A stretch of 64,000 nt of DNA from Sulfuricurvum sp. (lineage in GTDB: Bacteria > Campylobacterota > Campylobacteria > Campylobacterales > Sulfurimonadaceae), in assembly GCA_030696775.1 (NCBI GenBank), contig JAUYRN010000026.1:1-64000 (forward strand), written 5' to 3'. This document shows, piece after piece, positions 34,103 through 62,509 of this stretch. The notes under the pieces are model-generated. The model was not told the origin of the DNA and ran no database searches. It was given only the letters and a program-made list of their open reading frames with translations. The translations under genes and the position numbers were made by a program. Each line of letters opens with the position of its first letter. Positions within the stretch are counted from its first letter, which is position 1.

Positions 34103-37100
34103 CTATTTTTTGCTTTTTATAAAGAGTCTAATCTGATCTTTTTTCTCTGGCTTGTCAGATGTTATAAACTTCCGTGAATGTAATAGTTTGATAATTTTTT
34201 TATTATAATCTTTATCAGAGATTACTGTCTGCGTTCCATCAAGTTTAGCGATTTGACTATACTTATCAGGCATTAACTTTAACATCTCAATTAATTCTTC
34301 ATTATTTAACACACTTTCCTGTTCTACCAACAAATTAACTTTTGATTCTGTAGATTCAAGTTGTGAAATCATATTTTTTATATATGAATAAGATCTAATA
34401 ATAGTTTTGTCAATATTTGAATAAATTAATTTTGCAATTTTTGGAGTACTGATTAAATCGTAATCTATGAGTTCAATAATCTCTTTTTTATATTTATCAG
34501 AGATATTTTTTGATTCTAATAACTTTGTAATATCATCGCTATCAATACTAAAATCAGAGTGATTTTTAATGAATTCTTCAATGTATTTCTCTAAAAATAC
34601 AATATGTTGTGAAGGGAAATATTCTTTTAAAGAATTAAAATTATTTTGATTAAATTTAAATTTGTCAAACTTAATCATTAAGTCAATTTTCTGAGAATTT
34701 AGATTTTGAATATTGAGTGTTAGATAATTAATAAACCAAATACTTTTTATTAGATAATTATAGGCATCATTGTTTATTCCTGCACAAAGCATTAGCTCTT
34801 TATTAAAACTTTCTAAAGTTGTATCTTTATCAAAATCTTTTACATTATTGATCTTTGACGTAGATAATGCTGTGTAATGTTTCTCTACATTTAAATAATC
34901 AATTAAAACTGAATCTATATTATTTTCTCTATAAATATAGTAGTGAAGTACATTATTCCAAGTAGGTAATAAAAAATTGTATTTAAACAAAAGAGACCAC
35001 AATTCTTGAGAGCTTATAAAATTTATATCTGATATCTTATTTTCTTGCTTTTGGATAATTTTTTCTTTTAACTCATCTTCAATTCTATTATTGTTAAGTA
35101 GATCGACAATTGTTTTTTCTGTTTCTTCAACATTTGTATCAATATTCAAATTTACATTTTCAATATATTCATTAATGTTGTTTGCAATATACTGCTTTAG
35201 TTTTTTAGCTTTTGAATTCATTATTACTGTATAGTGCGCATTTTTTAGTCTGTTATATACTGTATTGTCATAATCGCTTTCAACATACAAAATATAATCT
35301 ATCATCTGCTGGTTAAGCTCGTAAAAGTTATTTTCATAAATAAATTTGTATGGTGTTATTTTGTCTTGATCTTCTTGGAAAAATTTGAAGCTAATATTTA
35401 AATCTTTAATTAGACTTGTAAGCCTATTATTAAAAATTTCATTTGGACTCTCAAACTTTTCGAAAGAGCCAATATAGGTTTTTAGGGAGTTGTTTACATT
35501 TAAATCGACAATATCTTTGTATTCCAAGTTATGTAGGAACATATAAAAATATTTACTTTTTTCTTCATCTGTTTTGTTCATTGCAATGTATTGCCAAACT
35601 GATGGATAATGTCTAACTAAGCCTTGGATAAAGGCTTTTTTCTTTTTTTGTGTATTTAGATACTCAAAAATGAACTCCATTGAAACTTCACTTTCATTTG
35701 ATAACTGTTTCAATATTTGAATATACTGCCTAATGTATTTCTTTTGATTATCAATAATATAGTCAAACAATTTAAAGTTTAAAATAGCCTCTTTTTTATA
35801 TTCCCCAATCTCAAGTCTTTCTTTTTTAAGAATCTCTTCTAAGTTTTTTAGATCATAATTAAAATCAAAATGTGTACCATTGTTTTTAATATTTAATAAA
35901 AAGTCATTATCATTTTTTGAAATGCTAATCCCAAAGAAATTTGACATATAGATATCGTAATCTTTATTTATATGTCCATAACTAATTAAATATTTTAAAA
36001 GTGGTTTCTTTTTAAATTTGTCATCAAATATCTTAATATCTTGATATGTATTTATAATCTTTTGAACAGAGTAATTCTCTATTTCATTGATTTCATCTTT
36101 TAGCTTATTAATTTGCTTTAGTAATTCATTTTTTGTATTGTTTGTTTTATCTAAAATAAATTGCTCTCTTTGCTTGTATGAATATTTTTGATTAACTTCT
36201 TTTTCGATATTCTTAAAAACTAATTTTCCATTGCGACTATCATAAGTTATTTCTTGACTCTCTTTCACCAATTCAAAGTTTTCATCTTCCAATGCTGTTG
36301 TTAAATTAAAAGCTACTCTTGAAACATAGATATTACCATTAAAATTAGCAGAAAATTTTTCAACTATTTTAAAAAGGTAAACTTTTCGTAGCTCAATTAT
36401 TGCTTCTTGTGGTTCTTTATCTATCTCTTGAATTTTGTCTTCAATTTCTTCAATTTTACTTTTTAACTCATCAATCGCAGTTTTTATATATTCAGGTTTT
36501 TTATTAAATACATCATAGACCAATCCTTCATATTTATGTAATTTTTCAAAATCTTGTGGCTCAAAATTTTTATAGATAATCATTGCCAACAATGCGGTTT
36601 TATCCAGCCTCTCATCAAGACTTATGCTATATATTTTATATTCGTTGTAAATATTCTTTAAAAGTCTCATATCCGAAATATATAGTGAAACATCATATAA
36701 AAAACTAGACTTAACTTCATCTTGAAAAAATTCTAATAATTTCTCTTTTGAATTTGTTGCGTTGATATAAGGGATAATAGGGATAACGAAATCAAAAAAT
36801 TTCGTCCTCTCATGTGAATCACAAAACATTTCATCTTTTACTGCATATATAAACTTTATGTTTCTGTCAATTTGCTCTGAATTGTTTATAAAATTATTGA
36901 GTTCTCTTAATTTTGTAAAAATATCTAAGTTATCGAACCTATCTAAATCTTGAAAAACAAGCACATTAAAAGAAGTTTTTTCAAAAAAATATAAAATTTC
37001 ATCCAAATGTTTGTTTAGTAAAGATTCATTGTTTTTGTCATTAGAAACTAATTCTAAATCTTTTAAATTGAGTTTATCAATCCTTGTATTACTGATTATG

Positions 37101-37735
37101 AACAAAAACTTTTGTACAAAAAAATAAGCGCCTATCAATAAAATTAAAGCAGGTATATATTTAATATAGTCCAATTGAAATAATGCGAGAATATCTTTAA
37201 AAAAGATTACCTTTGATAAAAGTTCTGCTTTAAAGACTATAAAAAAAGATAAAACAACAGATAAAATGGAAATAATTTTTATAGGTAAAAATCTCAATCT
37301 ATTGATTTTATTTAACCGTGATTGAGGGATTTTTTTACTTTTGACCTTATAAAACATTTGCTCTAAAATACTTTTTTCGATAAGCGATGGATCGATAGCG
37401 CTTGTTCCATTATTTTTATTAAATCTTGCTAACGATATATCTAAAAATTCATATACACTATTTTCATTATTTTTTTCAAATGTTTTTATAAAACTACTTT
37501 TGCCCGAGCCATAAGAACCTGATACAGCAATATTTCTTACTTTTTTTTCGTTTAGTGCATTTTCTAAAGCTATTGAATACTCTCCAATGTGTTCAGCTTC
37601 ATCATTAGGAGTTAAAAATTGATATTTGCTTTTCGTTTTGTTATATTTACTCTTTATGTAATGGTGGTAAACATTTAAATTTTTTAATAAAAAGACAACT
37701 ATATTATCTATAATTTTTTCCAGTTTTAAATTCAT
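34103..37735 (-). CDS. YobI/KAP-like membrane-anchored P-loop NTPase
   Basis: About 1210 residues. Walker A SGSYGSGKSS is near residue 72, two membrane helices lie at about 150-215, and a Walker B-like FQDLDRF is near 285, the layout of KAP and YobI-type NTPases in which membrane helices interrupt the ATPase. The remaining 900 residues are largely helical without a recognised domain. It is very AT-rich compared with the first 33 kb, which suggests transfer. The ATG at 37735 has GAGG upstream; a longer start at 37807 would overlap a different gene remnant. Large NTPases of this kind are often part of anti-phage islands, but no activity is known for this one. Confidence 0.72.
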   Translation of the reverse strand: MNLKLEKIIDNIVVFLLKNLNVYHHYIKSKYNKTKSKYQFLTPNDEAEHIGEYSIALENALNEKKVRNIAVSGSYGSGKSSFIKTFEKNNENSVYEFLDISLARFNKNNGTSAIDPSLIEKSILEQMFYKVKSKKIPQSRLNKINRLRFLPIKIISILSVVLSFFIVFKAELLSKVIFFKDILALFQLDYIKYIPALILLIGAYFFVQKFLFIISNTRIDKLNLKDLELVSNDKNNESLLNKHLDEILYFFEKTSFNVLVFQDLDRFDNLDIFTKLRELNNFINNSEQIDRNIKFIYAVKDEMFCDSHERTKFFDFVIPIIPYINATNSKEKLLEFFQDEVKSSFLYDVSLYISDMRLLKNIYNEYKIYSISLDERLDKTALLAMIIYKNFEPQDFEKLHKYEGLVYDVFNKKPEYIKTAIDELKSKIEEIEDKIQEIDKEPQEAIIELRKVYLFKIVEKFSANFNGNIYVSRVAFNLTTALEDENFELVKESQEITYDSRNGKLVFKNIEKEVNQKYSYKQREQFILDKTNNTKNELLKQINKLKDEINEIENYSVQKIINTYQDIKIFDDKFKKKPLLKYLISYGHINKDYDIYMSNFFGISISKNDNDFLLNIKNNGTHFDFNYDLKNLEEILKKERLEIGEYKKEAILNFKLFDYIIDNQKKYIRQYIQILKQLSNESEVSMEFIFEYLNTQKKKKAFIQGLVRHYPSVWQYIAMNKTDEEKSKYFYMFLHNLEYKDIVDLNVNNSLKTYIGSFEKFESPNEIFNNRLTSLIKDLNISFKFFQEDQDKITPYKFIYENNFYELNQQMIDYILYVESDYDNTVYNRLKNAHYTVIMNSKAKKLKQYIANNINEYIENVNLNIDTNVEETEKTIVDLLNNNRIEDELKEKIIQKQENKISDINFISSQELWSLLFKYNFLLPTWNNVLHYYIYRENNIDSVLIDYLNVEKHYTALSTSKINNVKDFDKDTTLESFNKELMLCAGINNDAYNYLIKSIWFINYLTLNIQNLNSQKIDLMIKFDKFKFNQNNFNSLKEYFPSQHIVFLEKYIEEFIKNHSDFSIDSDDITKLLESKNISDKYKKEIIELIDYDLISTPKIAKLIYSNIDKTIIRSYSYIKNMISQLESTESKVNLLVEQESVLNNEELIEMLKLMPDKYSQIAKLDGTQTVISDKDYNKKIIKLLHSRKFITSDKPEKKDQIRLFIKSKK

Positions 37736-37760
37736 TTGAACCTCAAGTTTTGATTTTCTT

Positions 37761-37872
37761 TCATAATTCCACCATTCTCTCAAACATCTCTTTAATCTCC
37801 GTTTCATGAGAGATCAAAAATATCTGCCGATACGATTCGCTGATGGTATTGATGAAATAGTTTGAGACTAGA
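37761..37872 (-). pseudogene. C-terminal remnant of an SbcC/Rad50-like ATPase gene
   Basis: A minus-strand frame ends ...SESYRQIFLISHETEIKEMF and then a few residues before a stop at 37761-37763. The FLISH-E-I pattern is the end of SbcC/Rad50-type ATPases (switch His and last helix). The rest of such a gene is missing; upstream the frame no longer looks like that family. It overlaps the alternative N-terminus of the YobI-like gene in another frame, which is a further reason to use the shorter start there. Confidence 0.4.
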
Positions 37873-38054: not shown

Positions 38055-38282
38055 ATGACAGAACTCGCACACTTTACTTTAGGTCATACCAGCGACAGCG
38101 AAACAACAAAAGACGTCAAAGAGCAAGAAGCTGAAACGCTAACAGCTCTAATATGTGCAGAATTTGGGATTGATCGTAAAAGCGAATTCTATTTAAAAGG
38201 GTGGGGCACTAAAAATATTCTCGCGGCTATGTCAAAAATGTCCAAAGCTTACGCCGAAATCAAAAAGGTTTTGGCGGCTTGA
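38055..38282 (+). pseudogene. Truncated ArdC-like zinc-peptidase domain
   Basis: A 75-residue frame starting MTELAHFTLGH and ending in a WGTKNILAAMSKMSKAY helix. It matches the C-terminal metallopeptidase part of ArdC-type anti-restriction proteins from plasmids and integrative elements, where the zinc motif is HELAH. Here the first His is Thr (TELAH), and the N-terminal DNA-binding domain is missing. The acidic EQEAETLTALIC segment is retained. It is probably a decayed gene from an older mobile element. Confidence 0.55.
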
Positions 38283-38450: not shown

Positions 38451-38497
<47 letters not shown>

Positions 38498-38876: not shown

Positions 38877-39704
38877 TCATTGTATTCCAGCTTCCTTAAC
38901 TGCTATTGCAAATTCTTCTAGTGTTGTTTTGTCAGTAGACGAAACGAGTTTATTGTGCTCTTCTATAAGCTTAGACCGATATTGTGTATCAGTATTTTTA
39001 TACACTTGATCAAAGCATTGAGTATATTGATTGAATTCTTCTAAAATTTTATTAAGCTTACGATGATAATCAATTCCACCCATCGACTTGATTTCAATAT
39101 GATTGGATTCAAGTTTTTCAAGATTCCAAATTGTCCCTTTTTTAGTTTTGATAACTCTTGCTTTGGATTTGGTATTTGATAATAAGATATCCATCACATT
39201 CTGACTATACTCTAGCCGTGGTTCCCATGATGAGAGTAGGTTCTTGTCATGACACATGAGCATAAAAACGTAAAATGGAAAATTCACTCCATCATTTTTG
39301 ATCGTCGAAATATGAAAGTGTAATCCGGTATCTTCATTCGTATAACCGAATTCTTCTATGAGGGGCAATATATGGCAAATGTAGTGATTTACACCCGCTT
39401 GTGAAGTAATTGGTATTGAAATTTCGATACCATTACTTTTCAACGATTGATCTGGTTTGATTTGAATACAATGATTCTTATCATCTTCGATGGGTAGATT
39501 TGACAAATCAACCAAAATATCGGCATTGGTAAATGCTTGTAGCTTATTTTTGATTCTCTCTATGGCATCTTTAAAATCGTATTTTTCAATATCAATATAA
39601 AATTCGAATTCACAACCAAATTGGTACTCATCGGTTTCTGTAACATTATAACTATCAACCGTACTATTGGATATAGCCTTGTATCTTTGTGTTGTACTTG
39701 ACAT
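38877..39704 (-). CDS. Amidoligase-family protein (COOH-NH2 ligase, glutamine-synthetase-like fold)
   Basis: A 275-residue protein. FGCEFEFYID near residue 30, the LVDLSNLP and GIEISIPI segments, TGLHFHIST near 140 and the SMGGIDYHRKLNKI segment follow the pattern of the amidoligase_2 family, whose members are predicted to use ATP to join an amine to a carboxyl group on peptides or proteins. The acidic and His residues of the active site appear to be present. It starts three bases after the stop of the winged-helix/GGCT gene; amidoligases and GGCT-like enzymes are known to co-occur, one making and one removing gamma-glutamyl-type bonds. The true substrate is unknown. Confidence 0.65.
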   Translation of the reverse strand: MSSTTQRYKAISNSTVDSYNVTETDEYQFGCEFEFYIDIEKYDFKDAIERIKNKLQAFTNADILVDLSNLPIEDDKNHCIQIKPDQSLKSNGIEISIPITSQAGVNHYICHILPLIEEFGYTNEDTGLHFHISTIKNDGVNFPFYVFMLMCHDKNLLSSWEPRLEYSQNVMDILLSNTKSKARVIKTKKGTIWNLEKLESNHIEIKSMGGIDYHRKLNKILEEFNQYTQCFDQVYKNTDTQYRSKLIEEHNKLVSSTDKTTLEEFAIAVKEAGIQ

Positions 39705-39707
39705 TTT

Positions 39708-40310
39708 TTAATGCAACTTTTCTAAAAAACTTTTCAACTGTTCCACTTTGTAATCGGTATTGTTTTCCCAAGATTTTAACGGTGTTTGATCTTCAGGTGT
39801 TTCAACGCCTTCTCGAATATATGCATATGCAAACTGGACACCATGATGTGTTTTTACTTTGATTTTTTTTCTTTGATAATAATCCGGTGCACCTTCAAAC
39901 TCATCGATTTGGTCTAAAAGTTCTTTACGTTGAATTTCATATAGTTCCCCGATTATACGGTTGATTGGTTTTTTGATCAAATAAGGGTAGTTGCCAAAAC
40001 TATCCTCAAACATACCAAACTTACCAACCGTTAAAGCTTTACCTAGTCTTCTCGTAGATTTTTCTAAAAGCTTATCGTTATCAAAACCTTTTTTTAGTGA
40101 TCCATAGACAAATAAAAATTCATGGAAGGGTTCAATTCTTTTAAAATAGCCTCTTTTTACAATCGAGATCATTCCACGTTCATGGAGTCTATGTAAATAT
40201 TTTCGGATAGTATCCTTTGAAATACCATCCATGTCTACAAACGAGAAAGGAACAATTTGATCTATCGCTAAAGTATTAATTTTACGTTCAAGTTTATCAA
40301 TAGTTTGCAT
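39708..40310 (-). CDS. Winged-helix (AbiEi-like) fused to gamma-glutamylcyclotransferase (GGCT/AIG2) domain
   Basis: A 200-residue two-domain protein. Residues about 1-60 form a winged helix (GISKDTIRKYLHRLHERGMI, then a KRGYFKRI wing) like AbiEi-type antitoxin N-termini; residues about 65-195 are a GGCT/AIG2-like domain with the FVYGSLKKGF entry motif and the IDEFEGAPDYYQR segment. The fusion suggests a protein that both regulates its own operon and reverses an amide linkage made by the amidoligase encoded next. AGGAGG precedes the ATG, and the promoter carries an inverted repeat that could be its operator. Confidence 0.75.
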   Translation of the reverse strand: MQTIDKLERKINTLAIDQIVPFSFVDMDGISKDTIRKYLHRLHERGMISIVKRGYFKRIEPFHEFLFVYGSLKKGFDNDKLLEKSTRRLGKALTVGKFGMFEDSFGNYPYLIKKPINRIIGELYEIQRKELLDQIDEFEGAPDYYQRKKIKVKTHHGVQFAYAYIREGVETPEDQTPLKSWENNTDYKVEQLKSFLEKLH

Positions 40311-40326
40311 TTATTCCTCCTTTTAT

Positions 40327-40370
40327 AACGTGACTTAATTATACAATATTTTATATAAAACTGTCACGTT
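40327..40370 (-). promoter_or_regulatory. Promoter with inverted-repeat operator of the GGCT/amidoligase operon
   Basis: On the minus strand GTGACA (40362-40367) and TATAAT (40338-40343) are 18 bp apart. AACGTGAC at 40327-40334 and its complement GTCACGTT at 40363-40370 flank the promoter, one over the -35 and one just after the -10. Binding at both would block RNA polymerase, which fits autoregulation by the winged-helix protein. Confidence 0.65.
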
Positions 40371-40490
40371 TATAAGTAAAGGATTTGATAGGATAGTTGG
40401 GCTTAAGTTGGAAATATAAAATTTTAACGAATGACAAAAACTTTTATCGTGGTAATATTGAATTACATTCTTTAAAATGGGATTTATATT

Positions 40491-43307
40491 TCATTTATTA
40501 TCAGTGATAGTAATGATTTTCTTAACATCGTGGATCTTCGATGCTATAGTCTCATTGTAAAAATTATTAAATTTTTTTAAATTTGTCAATGTTTTATCAA
40601 TTTGAATTCCAGGATGTTCTTGATTCCATATTTCTATACACTTTTTGTCAATGTTATGCAATTCAGCACGTACTTGATTGGCAAAATTTAATATTGATAC
40701 TTCTTCTTTTTGATCAGTATAGATTTTCTTCCCTGTATTCAAATATTCGGCCAATGATGAAAATAACTGCATAATTGCTTGAAAATTTTCGAATGAAAGA
40801 TAAGTAAAGCTATCAGTCCATATCCCAAATTTTTTAGCTTCAAATGCTACTTTATTAAGTTGTTGCAATATTTCTTTATGAACGTTTTTAATTTTTGCAT
40901 TTTTTGTTTCTGACTCAATAATGTGTTCAATTTCTTCAAATATCATTTTAAAATTGTCAATATGGTCAGATTCATATGCTTCAATAGCTAAATTAATAAA
41001 TTTCATTGTAACTTCAGGATTTTTAATAAATCTACCTTCAGTATAAACTATTTCTGATATTTTTGGATAACTAGACTCAAATATTCTTTGTTCAACTATT
41101 TTTGTATTAGTATCAGCAATTGTTGAAAGTTGCGTTGTATTTTCTAAATCAGGTTGCAGTATTGAATAAACTATAATTTCAAATAAATCATCTATATCAT
41201 CGTCGGCTATTTTTAAAATTTTTGCAATTTTTCTTATTGTTTTTTCAATCTCTTCATTAAAATTAAATATCAGATTTATATCATTTTTTATTTTTTGTGA
41301 AATGATTTTATTTGTTTTATTAGTAGTAATTGTAAGAACAGTTAAATGTAAATTTTTAAGACTGGTCTCTATTAATTCATGAAAATTTTTTAAGATTCGT
41401 TTTTCTTGTATCTTTTCTTGTTCGAAAAATGAATTTTCTACATAATCAAGTATTTTAGTCATTCGTGCAACAGCTAATAAGTTTTCAATTGATAAAAAAA
41501 TAAATCCATCTTGCCATAACTTATCGATAAATAATTCTAATATTGCATCATTGCCTTTGCGCAGAGGATTCATCATATTTGACTTATGTGTATCATCAAA
41601 AGTGAATTCGTTTTTAATTCCTAAATGGGTTGATTTTAAATCATCTGATTCTTTATATTTTTGACTTATAAATTTCAAGGTATTTATAGTTGATAAAGTC
41701 AATTTATCTGATGATTCACCTATTTCATTTATATTCAAAGAAATTTTTATTTTAATATTTTCATTTTCATTCATAAAAATTTTGTCAAAACCAAAAAACT
41801 TATTTTCTGATGAAATGAATTTTTCTAAATCAATGCTATAAAATCGCTCTGGATTCTGTTTAATTGCATATCTAAGTTCTTTAATATGAGTTTGTATTTT
41901 TGTATTTTTTAATTCTTCAATACCAAAATATTTGACAATAAGGGATTCGTATTGATTAATAAATCTTTTTGTAACTAACTCAATACGTTTTGGATCAAAT
42001 ACTTGCGTCAAGACTTCATTACATTGTGGAGTAGATATAACGGTATGGTGTCCACATTCGCAAATAAGAGTTAATGCTTGATCATCTAAATGTAGTTTTG
42101 CATTATGTCCATAATTTTTTTTGCAAGCTTCACATCGATATAAACGAGCTTCTTTAGCTTCTTTTTTATACCCACAAACTGAGCATATCCAAAAGATTTT
42201 TTCACCATCTTTTTTTGGATAAAGTTTATTGCTTCCACAAGACGAACATAAATGTTTTCCATTTACTTCATTTGACTTTATCCTCTCTTTAATAGGATCA
42301 GTTGGATTACCAAGATTTCCTATTACATTTCCACAATCCAGTAATGTACCATGCGTTTTTCCTGGAGATAACCGCATGATTCTACCAACCATTTGTTTAT
42401 ACAAATTTTGACTTTTTGTAGGTCTTGCGATTACTGCGGTATCCGTATCGGGGACATCAAATCCTGTCGTTAGCATCAAGACGGAAACTAGGATTTTCAA
42501 ATGTCCTTTTTTAAAATGCTCGATAATATTTTTTTGTTCTTGCTTGTCTTGCTCAGAATGTAAAACATTAGTCATTAAACCAGCTTGTTTATAAGCTTCT
42601 GTAAGTAATTTAGCGTGATTTATATCTACGGCAAATACAATTGTTTTCTTTGATTTTGCAATTTGTTCTTTCGTCGCATTTACAACTTCTAAAACGGCAT
42701 TACGGTTACCCATCAATTTTCCAAGTTCGGCTTTATCGTAGTCACCTGCAACAATTCTAATGTTGCTTAAATTTTGACGAACAGATGTAAATGCTTCTAT
42801 ATGTACTAAATACCCATACTCAATCATGTAATCAACATCATAATCATCTAATACAATATCAAACCCTTTGAGTAATACACCATCTTTATCGTATGGAGTT
42901 GCTGATAATCCAATGATACGGCTATTTGGATGGGCGAGTTTGAGTTCTTCTAGATTTTTACCTGAATAACCATGATGGACTTCATCTACTATGATTACAT
43001 CAGGATTTAAATCTTTTCGATTTACAGCTGTTTGTATTGTGCTAATCAAAATATGATGATTCGGATCATATTTATTATTTCCATGGACAATATGAGGTTT
43101 CATACCCTTAAAAACGTCTGCGGTTTGATCCATAAGAATAATTTTTGGAGCTATAAAAAGTACGTGTTGATCTCTTGCCGTTAGCGTCAATGCAATTTCT
43201 TTAGCAATTACAGTTTTTCCACCACCTGTAGGTACTTGAATTAATGTTGAAGCATTAGTTTGAATTGTTTGATTGATAATATCTATCTGATAAGGTCGTA
43301 ATTCCAA
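40491..43307 (-). CDS. SF2 DEAD/DEAH helicase with zinc-ribbon region
   Basis: A 938-residue protein. Residues 1-330 are an SF2 helicase core: Walker A PTGGGKT, IVDEVHH (motif II), LSATPY (motif III) and QMVGRIMR (motif VI). Residues about 350-430 hold three or four CxxC pairs (CSSCGSNK, CSVCGYKK, CEACKK, CECGHH), zinc ribbons of the Res/SSL2-type helicases. The last 500 residues are helical and unassigned. It is separated from the GGCT gene by 180 bp but points the same way and may be part of the same defence-like module. It lacks a nuclease domain I can see. Confidence 0.75.
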   Translation of the reverse strand: MELRPYQIDIINQTIQTNASTLIQVPTGGGKTVIAKEIALTLTARDQHVLFIAPKIILMDQTADVFKGMKPHIVHGNNKYDPNHHILISTIQTAVNRKDLNPDVIIVDEVHHGYSGKNLEELKLAHPNSRIIGLSATPYDKDGVLLKGFDIVLDDYDVDYMIEYGYLVHIEAFTSVRQNLSNIRIVAGDYDKAELGKLMGNRNAVLEVVNATKEQIAKSKKTIVFAVDINHAKLLTEAYKQAGLMTNVLHSEQDKQEQKNIIEHFKKGHLKILVSVLMLTTGFDVPDTDTAVIARPTKSQNLYKQMVGRIMRLSPGKTHGTLLDCGNVIGNLGNPTDPIKERIKSNEVNGKHLCSSCGSNKLYPKKDGEKIFWICSVCGYKKEAKEARLYRCEACKKNYGHNAKLHLDDQALTLICECGHHTVISTPQCNEVLTQVFDPKRIELVTKRFINQYESLIVKYFGIEELKNTKIQTHIKELRYAIKQNPERFYSIDLEKFISSENKFFGFDKIFMNENENIKIKISLNINEIGESSDKLTLSTINTLKFISQKYKESDDLKSTHLGIKNEFTFDDTHKSNMMNPLRKGNDAILELFIDKLWQDGFIFLSIENLLAVARMTKILDYVENSFFEQEKIQEKRILKNFHELIETSLKNLHLTVLTITTNKTNKIISQKIKNDINLIFNFNEEIEKTIRKIAKILKIADDDIDDLFEIIVYSILQPDLENTTQLSTIADTNTKIVEQRIFESSYPKISEIVYTEGRFIKNPEVTMKFINLAIEAYESDHIDNFKMIFEEIEHIIESETKNAKIKNVHKEILQQLNKVAFEAKKFGIWTDSFTYLSFENFQAIMQLFSSLAEYLNTGKKIYTDQKEEVSILNFANQVRAELHNIDKKCIEIWNQEHPGIQIDKTLTNLKKFNNFYNETIASKIHDVKKIITITDNK

Positions 43308-43663
43308 AATATCACCATCAATTTATATATGTTAAATGATAATAGTATTCTGAGGCTTTAAAGGTGATAAAGCAAAATTAAATTATTTCGCCACATTATT
43401 TTATTTTCACTAATATGCTCATAGTCTTTGTTTGTAAAGAAATGAGATAGATGTGATTACTTTTATCACATTCAAAATTTGACTATACCTTATTGCCCAC
43501 CAATCCATTTCAATACCAAGTCCCATTTTAACTACCTAAACCTGTACCCCTTTTACCTAGTGTGATTTAATTTGACCTAACAAATATTTATAAGATATAG
43601 ACTTACCGACGTTTATGTTGATTGAGCTTTATGTCTTTGTACATTTATTTAAAAGGAAAATCG
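43308..43663. other. Divergent intergenic region with a 21-bp palindrome
   Basis: The 356 bp between the helicase and excisionase-like genes are AT-rich. ATGTGAT-N7-ATCACAT at 43451-43471 is a perfect interrupted palindrome and a candidate operator. A sequence around 43414-43445 weakly resembles the island stem-loop family. No gene is visible. Confidence 0.45.
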
Positions 43664-43909
43664 ATGGAAGAGTTTAATGGAATTTTACAAATGTTAAAAG
43701 ATTTATTTCCTAACCAAATGACTCTTGATAAAAAAGAGGTTTCTGGCGTTATGGGTATTAGTTTATCAACGCTAGATAACTATATAGCTAGAGGCTATAA
43801 GTTACCGAAATACATAAAAATGGGCAATTCAAAGAATTCGGTAGTCCGATTCAATATAGTTGATGTCGCTAAATTTTTAGCTAATGCCCAAGTTAAAGTG
43901 TATGAATAG
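43664..43909 (+). CDS. Excisionase/AlpA-like helix-turn-helix protein
   Basis: About 81 residues from an ATG at 43664 with AAAGGAAA upstream (a longer TTG reading begins at 43622). The middle (TLDKKEVSGVMGISLSTLDN) is a helix-turn-helix of the AlpA/Xis type, followed by the KYIKMGNSKNSVVRF wing. It lies 65 bp before the integrase gene, the usual position of a recombination directionality factor. Confidence 0.7.
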   Translation: MEEFNGILQMLKDLFPNQMTLDKKEVSGVMGISLSTLDNYIARGYKLPKYIKMGNSKNSVVRFNIVDVAKFLANAQVKVYE

Positions 43910-50772: not shown

Positions 50773-52527
50773 GTGAACGAAAAACAGATCATGGCAATTT
50801 TGCAAGAAGTACACAGTAGTCTTAGAGTTGAACATACCGCTAAATTTCTATATTTGCTAAAAGCATGGAAAATATTATCAGATGCTAATGCTATTAATCC
50901 AATAGATGTAACCTTTGAAGAATTTTACAATCAAAAGATAGATGCAAAAAAACTTCAATTAGTAATCGAAAAACTATCAAAAAGTATAAAAATTTTTGAA
51001 TTATTTTTAAATCAATCTATCAATATTTCAAAAATCAATGATGATAGCTTGATAAAACTATTCACAGTTATAAATGATGGTCAAGATCTCTTGCAAGTGA
51101 ATGACATGTTTTATTCTTTACTTGAAGGACAGTCCGATTTTTCAGTTGCAAATCAAATAGCCGAGCTTGGAGTTAAGTTACTCGACAGTGAGTGTAAAGA
51201 GTTGTATGTTCCTTTTAGTAATGGTTTTAATTTTGCATACTACACAGATAAGGTGATCTTTGCAGAATCCTTATCTGATGAATATATTCTTGAATTAATG
51301 CGTGTCATAGAATCTGTAAATATAAACTTTAAACGTATTGACCCTTTAGAACAACCATCATTCAAAAATGATAATGCCCCACATTTATTGAAGCAGTTTG
51401 ATTGTGTTTTATCTTTTCCACCTATGGGAATGACTACAAGTAATAGGTTTCTTGATGCGGATAAGTTTAACAGGTTCAAATTTCATAAAGCTAAATCAAG
51501 TAGAGATATTGCTCATTTTGAGCATATTTTAGCCCAGACTAAAGGCAAGGCTGTTGTGTTGATGTCTGTAGGTTTTACTTACAGAGCTATGCACGAAGAA
51601 GCTTTTAGAAAAAGTATCGTAGATGAAAATATTTTAGAAGCTATTGTTCAATTACCACCAAATCTACATAATGCAACATCGATAGAAACGACATTTTTTA
51701 TTATTAATAAAAATAAAAAAAGTGACAAAGTGCTCTTTATAAATTTAAAAGATGAGCAATTCATTAAAAGAGATGGTAGAAAATTAGTTCTAAAAGATAT
51801 AAATGACATTGTAAATATTTACAACAATCAAGAAGAAATAGAAAACATATCTGCCCTTGTTTCAAATGAAGAGATAGCGAACGGTAATTACTCTTTGGCA
51901 ATTGATAGATATGTTTTATCAAAAGAAGCAGCTAGGCTGAAAAAGCTTTTATCAAATTATGATTTAGTGCAATTAGATAGCTTGGCTGAGATAAGACGAT
52001 CTCAATCTTTTAAAGATGAAGAAGAGGGAAAAGAAGTCTATGAGCTTTCACCATCAGATTTAGCAGAAGCAGGTTTTACCGTAGAGTCGGGAAAATTAAA
52101 GCAGATAGGGACACAATACAAAAAGCTTGAAACCTATAAAGTTCAACCTTATGATGTATTGCTAAGTACAAAAGGTACTATAGGTAAAGTAGGAATCGTT
52201 GGTGAAATAAGTGATTCAATTATAACCTCTCAAGCACTGCAAGTAATAAGGGTAAATGGTGACAATAAAAAAGAAACAGCAATCGAACTGTATATGTTTT
52301 TTAAGTCTAATCTAGGACAATCACTACTGAAACAACTCGTTGCAGGTGTAGCAATGCCTTTGATTTCTACGGCTGAGATCAAACAACTACAAATTCCAGT
52401 TTTGACAGAAATTGAGCAAAAAGAAACTATTTTAAACTTTCATAATGAAGTTAAAATGTATAATGAAATCAATAAAATCTATGCAGATATAGAAAAAATT
52501 CACAATAACTTTTTAGGGACAAAATAG
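50773..52527 (+). CDS. Degenerate N6-methylase domain fused to a specificity (TRD) domain
   Basis: A 584-residue protein starting at GTG with AGGAGG upstream. Residues about 120-370 follow the HsdM fold, but motif I is lost (VPFSNGFN where active enzymes have DPACGSGG) and motif IV reads SFPPM in place of NPPF/Y. Residues about 385-575 resemble an HsdS target-recognition half (YDVLLSTKGTIGKVGIVGE, AGVAMPLISTAEIKQLQIP). So it is a pseudo-methylase joined to a DNA-recognition domain, encoded directly before a complete hsdM-hsdS-hsdR set. It may change specificity or control activity of the system. Confidence 0.7.
   Translation: MNEKQIMAILQEVHSSLRVEHTAKFLYLLKAWKILSDANAINPIDVTFEEFYNQKIDAKKLQLVIEKLSKSIKIFELFLNQSINISKINDDSLIKLFTVINDGQDLLQVNDMFYSLLEGQSDFSVANQIAELGVKLLDSECKELYVPFSNGFNFAYYTDKVIFAESLSDEYILELMRVIESVNINFKRIDPLEQPSFKNDNAPHLLKQFDCVLSFPPMGMTTSNRFLDADKFNRFKFHKAKSSRDIAHFEHILAQTKGKAVVLMSVGFTYRAMHEEAFRKSIVDENILEAIVQLPPNLHNATSIETTFFIINKNKKSDKVLFINLKDEQFIKRDGRKLVLKDINDIVNIYNNQEEIENISALVSNEEIANGNYSLAIDRYVLSKEAARLKKLLSNYDLVQLDSLAEIRRSQSFKDEEEGKEVYELSPSDLAEAGFTVESGKLKQIGTQYKKLETYKVQPYDVLLSTKGTIGKVGIVGEISDSIITSQALQVIRVNGDNKKETAIELYMFFKSNLGQSLLKQLVAGVAMPLISTAEIKQLQIPVLTEIEQKETILNFHNEVKMYNEINKIYADIEKIHNNFLGTK

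Positions 52528-62430: not shown

Positions 62431-62509
<79 letters not shown>

Follow-up and report, generated by a model that had tools for sequence, protein, structure and literature searches.

A two-gene amidoligase and winged helix-GGCT module with a putative inverted-repeat operator in Sulfuricurvum sp., a candidate toxin-antitoxin-type system

Background

Genes for amidoligases and for GGCT proteins lie near each other in LUZ24-like phages (PMC3890496), in Tn6164 of C. difficile (PMC3485107) and in C. clostridioforme prophages (PMC11318856). Such pairs are already known from the genome annotation of phages and mobile elements, and the proximity was also seen in the records of phages LUZ24, CW02 and RIO-1. 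The present work concerns a pair of this kind in a 64,000-nucleotide stretch of Sulfuricurvum sp. (contig JAUYRN010000026.1, positions 1 to 64,000, hereafter the window), in which a gene for a winged helix-GGCT fusion protein, the proposed antitoxin and autorepressor, is followed by a gene for a glutamine synthetase (GS)-fold amidoligase, the proposed toxin or tag ligase. New here is a putative inverted-repeat operator around the promoter of the pair.

The described systems with PF12224 and AIG2/GGCT neighbours (LUZ24, UFV-P2, CW02, RIO-1, Tn6164 and the C. clostridioforme prophages) share with the pair a GS-fold ligase near a GGCT gene and a mobile setting, but their GGCT proteins were stand-alone in the records seen, whereas the GGCT domain of the window is fused to a winged helix. 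In the phage records read, GGCT lies in larger clusters that also contain genes for GATase, ATP-grasp and COOH-NH2 ligase proteins, while the module of the window consists of two genes with a dedicated putative operator and is the smallest amidoligase-GGCT version seen here. GS-fold ligases of this type couple a carboxylate to an amine at the expense of ATP, and gamma-glutamylamine cyclotransferases split gamma-glutamyl amides. Iyer et al. 2009 is reportedly the usual citation for the predicted functions of the amidoligase and GGCT families. In the open-access literature, no paper was found that links an amidoligase-GGCT pair to toxin-antitoxin function or that gives such a pair a tested function as a module.

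A close design among toxin-antitoxin systems is that of AbiE (type IV, AbiEi/AbiEii), in which AbiEi antitoxins, carrying an N-terminal winged helix-turn-helix (wHTH), repress their own operon through two inverted repeats within the promoter (PMC7319586); the same design is predicted for the fusion protein. Both are two-gene operons with the antitoxin gene first, but the C-terminal antitoxin domain of AbiEi is replaced by GGCT in the fusion protein, the AbiEii toxin is a DUF1814 nucleotidyltransferase whereas the partner here is a GS-fold ligase, and the half-site spacing differs from that of the pair's operator. The pair can also be likened to DarT/DarG, where one enzyme adds a modification and its partner removes it; the modification there is DNA ADP-ribosylation, as against the gamma-glutamyl amide predicted for the pair, and the folds differ.

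Gene pair and its distribution

The fusion gene (40310-39708, minus strand, 200 amino acids) is the first of the pair, preceded by a ribosome binding site AGGAGG that was read from the sequence (40316..40321, minus strand), and the ligase gene (39704-38877, minus strand, 275 amino acids) is the second, with a gap of 3 bp between them. A gene for a helicase (43307-40491, minus strand, 938 amino acids, TTG start) ends 180 bp upstream of the fusion gene. An earlier note on this DNA had described amidoligase and GGCT genes three bases apart with a helicase gene in the same orientation 180 bp upstream, and all three open reading frames (ORFs) were found where it had placed them.

When 84,980 species genomes were scanned together with viral contigs, plasmids and phages, the pair was found in 29 loci including the window: 26 loci from genomes, 1 viral contig and 1 Aliarcobacter butzleri plasmid locus (two near-identical plasmid copies counted as one). 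As far as can be told, all belong to the Campylobacterota (Sulfuricurvum, Sulfurimonas, Sulfurovum, Arcobacter and their kin); a Flavobacteriaceae copy (L011) is probably a mis-binned contig of a metagenome-assembled genome (MAG), its adjoining ung gene being 73% identical to one from the window's own genus. The GGCT gene directly precedes the ligase gene in 29 of 29 ligase loci, with an overlap of at most 4 bp or a gap of at most 10 bp, and the pairing is not due to chance because it is conserved in 29 loci. Identities of the ligase and the GGCT protein across loci co-vary (Spearman 0.89, 231 pairs). By these sequence comparisons, the pair is a tightly coupled two-gene unit, co-inherited at every ligase locus. 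Among 397 sampled genomes, the intact pair was present in 3 and the fusion gene alone in 1 more. No ligase homologue was found in 50,697 phage records, and the sole viral contig with the pair was IMGVR_UViG_3300010965_000219 (L034/L105).

Promoter and putative operator

Upstream of the fusion gene, the consensus across loci contained an inverted repeat, TATCGTGACA - 25 or 26 bp - TGTCACGATA, placed around the promoter of the pair. In the window, the left arm CGTGACA (40362..40368, minus strand) includes the -35 hexamer GTGACA (40362-40367), the -10 hexamer TATAAT follows after an 18-bp spacer (40338..40343, minus strand), and the right arm GTCACG (40329..40334, minus strand) lies directly downstream of the -10, inverted to the left arm. 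This promoter (40367-40338) is the best match of the region, with 11 of 12 positions over the -35 GTGACA and the -10. Across loci, the -35 GTGACA lies within the left arm and the -10, in the operator spacer, reads TGCTATAAT in most.

Of 27 upstream regions, 24 had the putative operator, and its spacing was constant. With a limit of 4 mismatches in 20 operator positions, it was recovered in 23 upstream regions compared with 13 of 8100 shuffled controls. Where one arm is altered, the other is often altered to match (AAACGTGACA/TGTCACGTTT in L021, AACGTGAC/GTCACGTT in the window), as expected of a palindrome bound by a protein. The three upstream regions without the operator belong to the most divergent members, among them L027, which has lost the winged helix altogether. 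The exact operator-promoter pattern occurred once per genome in 4 of the 397 genomes, exactly those with a near-full-length fusion gene, and a reversed control of the pattern gave no match in the same search. Among 2.9 million viral contigs, the pattern occurred once, upstream of the pair in the pair-bearing contig. Across these upstream sequences, the putative operator is locked to the fusion gene and is absent where the winged helix is absent (L027). Since it is so locked, the fusion protein most likely is an autorepressor that binds the inverted repeat and represses its own operon, like AbiEi antitoxins.

Damage to the ligase gene

The ligase gene was interrupted by insertion sequences (IS) in L030 and L031 and truncated in L026, the L025 ligase lacked the usual start codon, and in genome G264 (L039/L069) the ligase was gone while the fusion gene and operator were kept beside a vsr-type gene. 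No broken fusion gene was found among the loci examined. Damage to the ligase only therefore stood at 5 versus 0, with a chance probability of about 0.07 if breaks are distributed in proportion to gene length (about 830 versus about 600 bp). This bias is suggestive of toxin-antitoxin asymmetry and is not proof of it.

Predicted folds and active sites

The fusion protein has an N-terminal wHTH at about residues 1-58 and a GGCT domain at residues 64-182. PF06094 matched the window protein with 77.6 bits (gathering cut-off 22.8, E 1.5e-21) and also matched 25 of 25 homologues. The AlphaFold model, with a predicted local distance difference test (pLDDT) score of 85, showed a winged helix at the N-terminus and, in addition, a GGCT barrel, and its best solved Foldseek matches were the gamma-glutamylamine cyclotransferases 1vkb, 3jub and 3juc (E 2e-8). 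E139 aligns with the catalytic E82 of human GGACT and is invariant in all homologues, as is the YGSL motif starting at Y69. By predicted structure, the nearest matches of the GGCT part are gamma-glutamylamine cyclotransferases, and it retains the catalytic Glu. Human GGACT (3jub/3juc) thus shares with the fusion protein the GGCT fold, the catalytic Glu and the gamma-glutamylamine-type subfamily, but it is without a DNA-binding domain and acts in metabolic isopeptide breakdown. The AbiEi models matched the window protein weakly (E 2.7e-4) and 21 of 25 homologues at E of 0.01 or less (best 1.7e-6), a weak likeness overall.

The ligase of the window had no Pfam match and missed the gathering cut-off of PF12224 Amidoligase_2 (22 bits), while PF12224 was matched below threshold by 11 of 22 ligase homologues (E of 1 or less, best 5.7e-4). 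The predicted model (pLDDT 85, predicted template modelling score 0.86) matched glutamine synthetases in the PDB by Foldseek (E about 1e-4, probability 0.97-1.0), with further matches to YbdK, gamma-glutamylmethylamide synthetase and the depupylase Dop, and in BFVD it matched phage amidoligases with E 2e-12. Global template modelling scores of these fold matches were between 0.3 and 0.6, low values that a reduced core would be expected to give. Six residues, E32, E34, E94, H129, H131 and E204, were invariant in 22 homologues; these Glu and His residues probably correspond to the metal-binding set of the superfamily, the mapping onto GS residues being by motif and not by superposition. Profile comparison by hhalign gave a weak match to phage amidoligases (probability 5.8%, E 0.0065) over the D-x-SL...E and H-x-H motifs and no match to phage COOH-NH2 ligases of the PF14395 type.

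The amidoligase and GGCT assignments of the earlier note were thus borne out, the former by the GS fold of the model and the sub-threshold PF12224 homologues and the latter by PF06094 and the predicted structure. Its AbiEi-like DNA-binding domain stood as regards the winged helix, which is present in the model, and less so as regards the AbiEi likeness, which is weak in the window protein and extends to 21 of 25 members across the family.

Neighbouring helicase and flanking genes

The helicase contained ResIII and Helicase_C domains and matched the RadD model NF053632 over residues 1-485 (E 1.2e-39, 136 bits), short of the equivalog cut-off of 720 bits, so that by sequence the protein is RadD-like and not RadD. 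It has a weak zinc-ribbon match at residues 354-385 and an unrelated C-terminal half. None of the 24 other loci with 1 kb or more of sequence before the fusion gene had the helicase gene beside the pair, and the closest annotated homologue of the helicase, located on an Arcobacter plasmid, did not adjoin the pair. The 180-bp gap in the window holds the pair's own promoter and operator. The three-gene conflict system proposed in the earlier note, with the helicase as a member, was not upheld, and the helicase was rejected as a third member and judged to lie outside the module.

No third conserved gene was found: among 62 flanking proteins of the sampled loci, no Pfam domain was shared by more than two, and each PADLOC family came up once at most. 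The flanking genes vary by locus and include dihydroxy-acid dehydratase with tRNAs, flagellar genes, rseP, tRNA synthetases, glycan genes and IS elements.

Proposed function and alternative explanations

The anatomy of the module and its putative operator are highly probable and much firmer than any statement on function. With chances that we consider evenly balanced, the pair may be a two-gene, self-regulated and mobile toxin-antitoxin-type module, whose ligase forms a gamma-glutamyl amide and whose GGCT domain takes it off again. The ligase would spend ATP on linking an amine of a cell component to a carboxylate, which is most likely the gamma-carboxyl group of glutamate, and unchecked activity would slow or stop growth. 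The GGCT domain would act as the antidote by cleaving gamma-glutamyl amides with release of 5-oxoproline, and the winged helix would bind the two inverted half-sites around the -35 and -10 and keep the operon repressed. Should the fusion protein be lost, diverted or titrated, for example when a phage infects the cell or the element disappears, product of the ligase would build up and the cell would arrest, while derepression would refill the operon; the module could serve in addiction or defence. When maker and eraser share a transcript and the eraser, encoded first, is fused to the predicted repressor, the arrangement is that of an enzyme-eraser toxin-antitoxin pair and makes poor sense as plain metabolism. 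The toxin-antitoxin-like logic suggested in the earlier note is supported by the conserved, putatively autoregulatory operator and by the asymmetric loss of the ligase. Its further idea, a DNA-binding part that monitors the balance between ligase and GGCT, is possible.

A more specific proposal, that the pair represents a new toxin-antitoxin chemistry in which a GS-fold ligase gamma-glutamylates an essential amine and the eraser cyclotransferase is fused to the operon repressor, is tentative and rather more doubtful than secure; the amine may be a small molecule, an RNA-bound amino acid or a protein. If the toxin-antitoxin reading holds, amide ligation and cyclotransferase erasure would join the known toxin-antitoxin chemistries and would provide a handle on the role of the related phage clusters. 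The question is testable with two clones and one promoter.

Several points weigh against the toxin-antitoxin reading. We infer both toxicity and neutralisation, and the reversal of the ligase by GGCT is deduced from the matched chemistry of two families. The winged helix resembles AbiEi weakly, the asymmetry of ligase breaks is small (5 to 0, about 0.07) and comes partly from draft MAGs, and the neighbours are often ordinary chromosomal genes, with defence-like neighbours non-recurrent. Gene order and autoregulation would equally suit a metabolite-responsive metabolic operon.

That last point leads to the main rival, which is somewhat unlikely: the ligase would make a gamma-glutamyl amide for detoxification, nitrogen storage or as an osmolyte, and GGCT would recover the amine, with the winged helix as a metabolite-responsive repressor and without any toxicity. 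The family chemistries fit, gamma-glutamylmethylamide synthetase and gamma-glutamylamine cyclotransferases being among the Foldseek matches, and autoregulation is compatible. However, genes for a transporter, an oxidase or a biosynthetic enzyme do not recur next to the pair, its occurrence is very patchy, with intact pairs in 3 of 397 genomes, it is carried by plasmids and integrative elements, and synthesis and breakdown on one transcript would be a futile cycle unless separately controlled.

Less probable still is a role in phage defence, by abortive infection or protein tagging, where infection would cause the ligase to modify a phage or host protein and GGCT would hold it off otherwise. 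The toxin-antitoxin-like anatomy, the type I restriction system within the same integrative element and the adjoining Tmn locus agree with this, and phages carry amidoligase/GGCT clusters, so that a conflict over such chemistry is plausible; yet the defence neighbours do not recur and the pair is absent from PADLOC as a system.

Quite improbable is an origin as phage-derived auxiliary genes, that is, a reduced ligase-GGCT cluster of the LUZ24/CW02 type, kept by chance, that would act in phage takeover or in changing the surface. The phage clusters do contain COOH-NH2 ligase, amidoligase, ATP-grasp and GGCT genes and the ligase fold matches phage amidoligases, but the pair is on one viral contig only, the ligase is in none of the phage records, the profile match to phage amidoligases is weak, and the pair has a dedicated putative operator and a long co-inheritance in bacteria.

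A three-gene system, with the helicase as a sensor of invading DNA that sets off the pair, is largely refuted, for although the helicase is on the same strand, 180 bp away and in the same integrative element, it recurs at none of the other loci, the gap holds the pair's own promoter and operator, and its nearest annotated homologue lies apart from the pair.

Integrative element and mobile settings

A perfect 47-bp direct repeat that matches the end of tRNA-Met delimits a 24-kb integrative element in the window, with an attL-like copy at 38451..38497 and an attR-like copy at 62431..62477, inside tRNA-Met (62433-62509). The pair lies at the left end of the element, whose cargo also includes the helicase, two integrases, a VapE-like primase, a type I restriction system and an SMC-like ATPase. 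Elsewhere, copies were found on plasmids and beside Mu-like transposition genes. In the viral contig (L034/L105), genes for MuA/MuB-like transposition proteins and for a cI-like repressor lay near the pair, which is possibly prophage cargo.

Just left of the attL-like repeat, outside the element, is a gene with a GC content of 24-26% for a YobI/Tmn-type NTPase, a known phage-defence protein (34103-37807; PF20693 E 2e-105, PADLOC Tmn E 7e-83). It was rejected as a partner, as it lies beside no other copy of the pair and outside the element. Between this gene and the repeat, a 75-amino-acid ORF (38055-38282) without a Pfam match resembles the C-terminus of an ArdC-type antirestriction metallopeptidase and is probably a relic.

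Within the element, an HTH_17 excisionase-like gene (43622-43909), with a weak PADLOC mad1 score (1.2e-4), lies directly before an integrase gene. One ORF (50773-52527) contains an N6-methylase domain followed by a type I specificity-like stretch; this fusion is unusual and is extra to the full HsdM, HsdS and HsdR set that it adjoins.

A second GGCT fusion architecture was observed in genome G219 (L068:4511-5167), where the same GGCT subtype is on a different N-terminal domain beside a relaxase-like gene, with no ligase within the 10 kb read. In G264 (L069), the vsr-type endonuclease gene in the place of the ligase is followed by GHKL- and Z1-like genes, in a tRNA-flanked hotspot with turnover of cargo.

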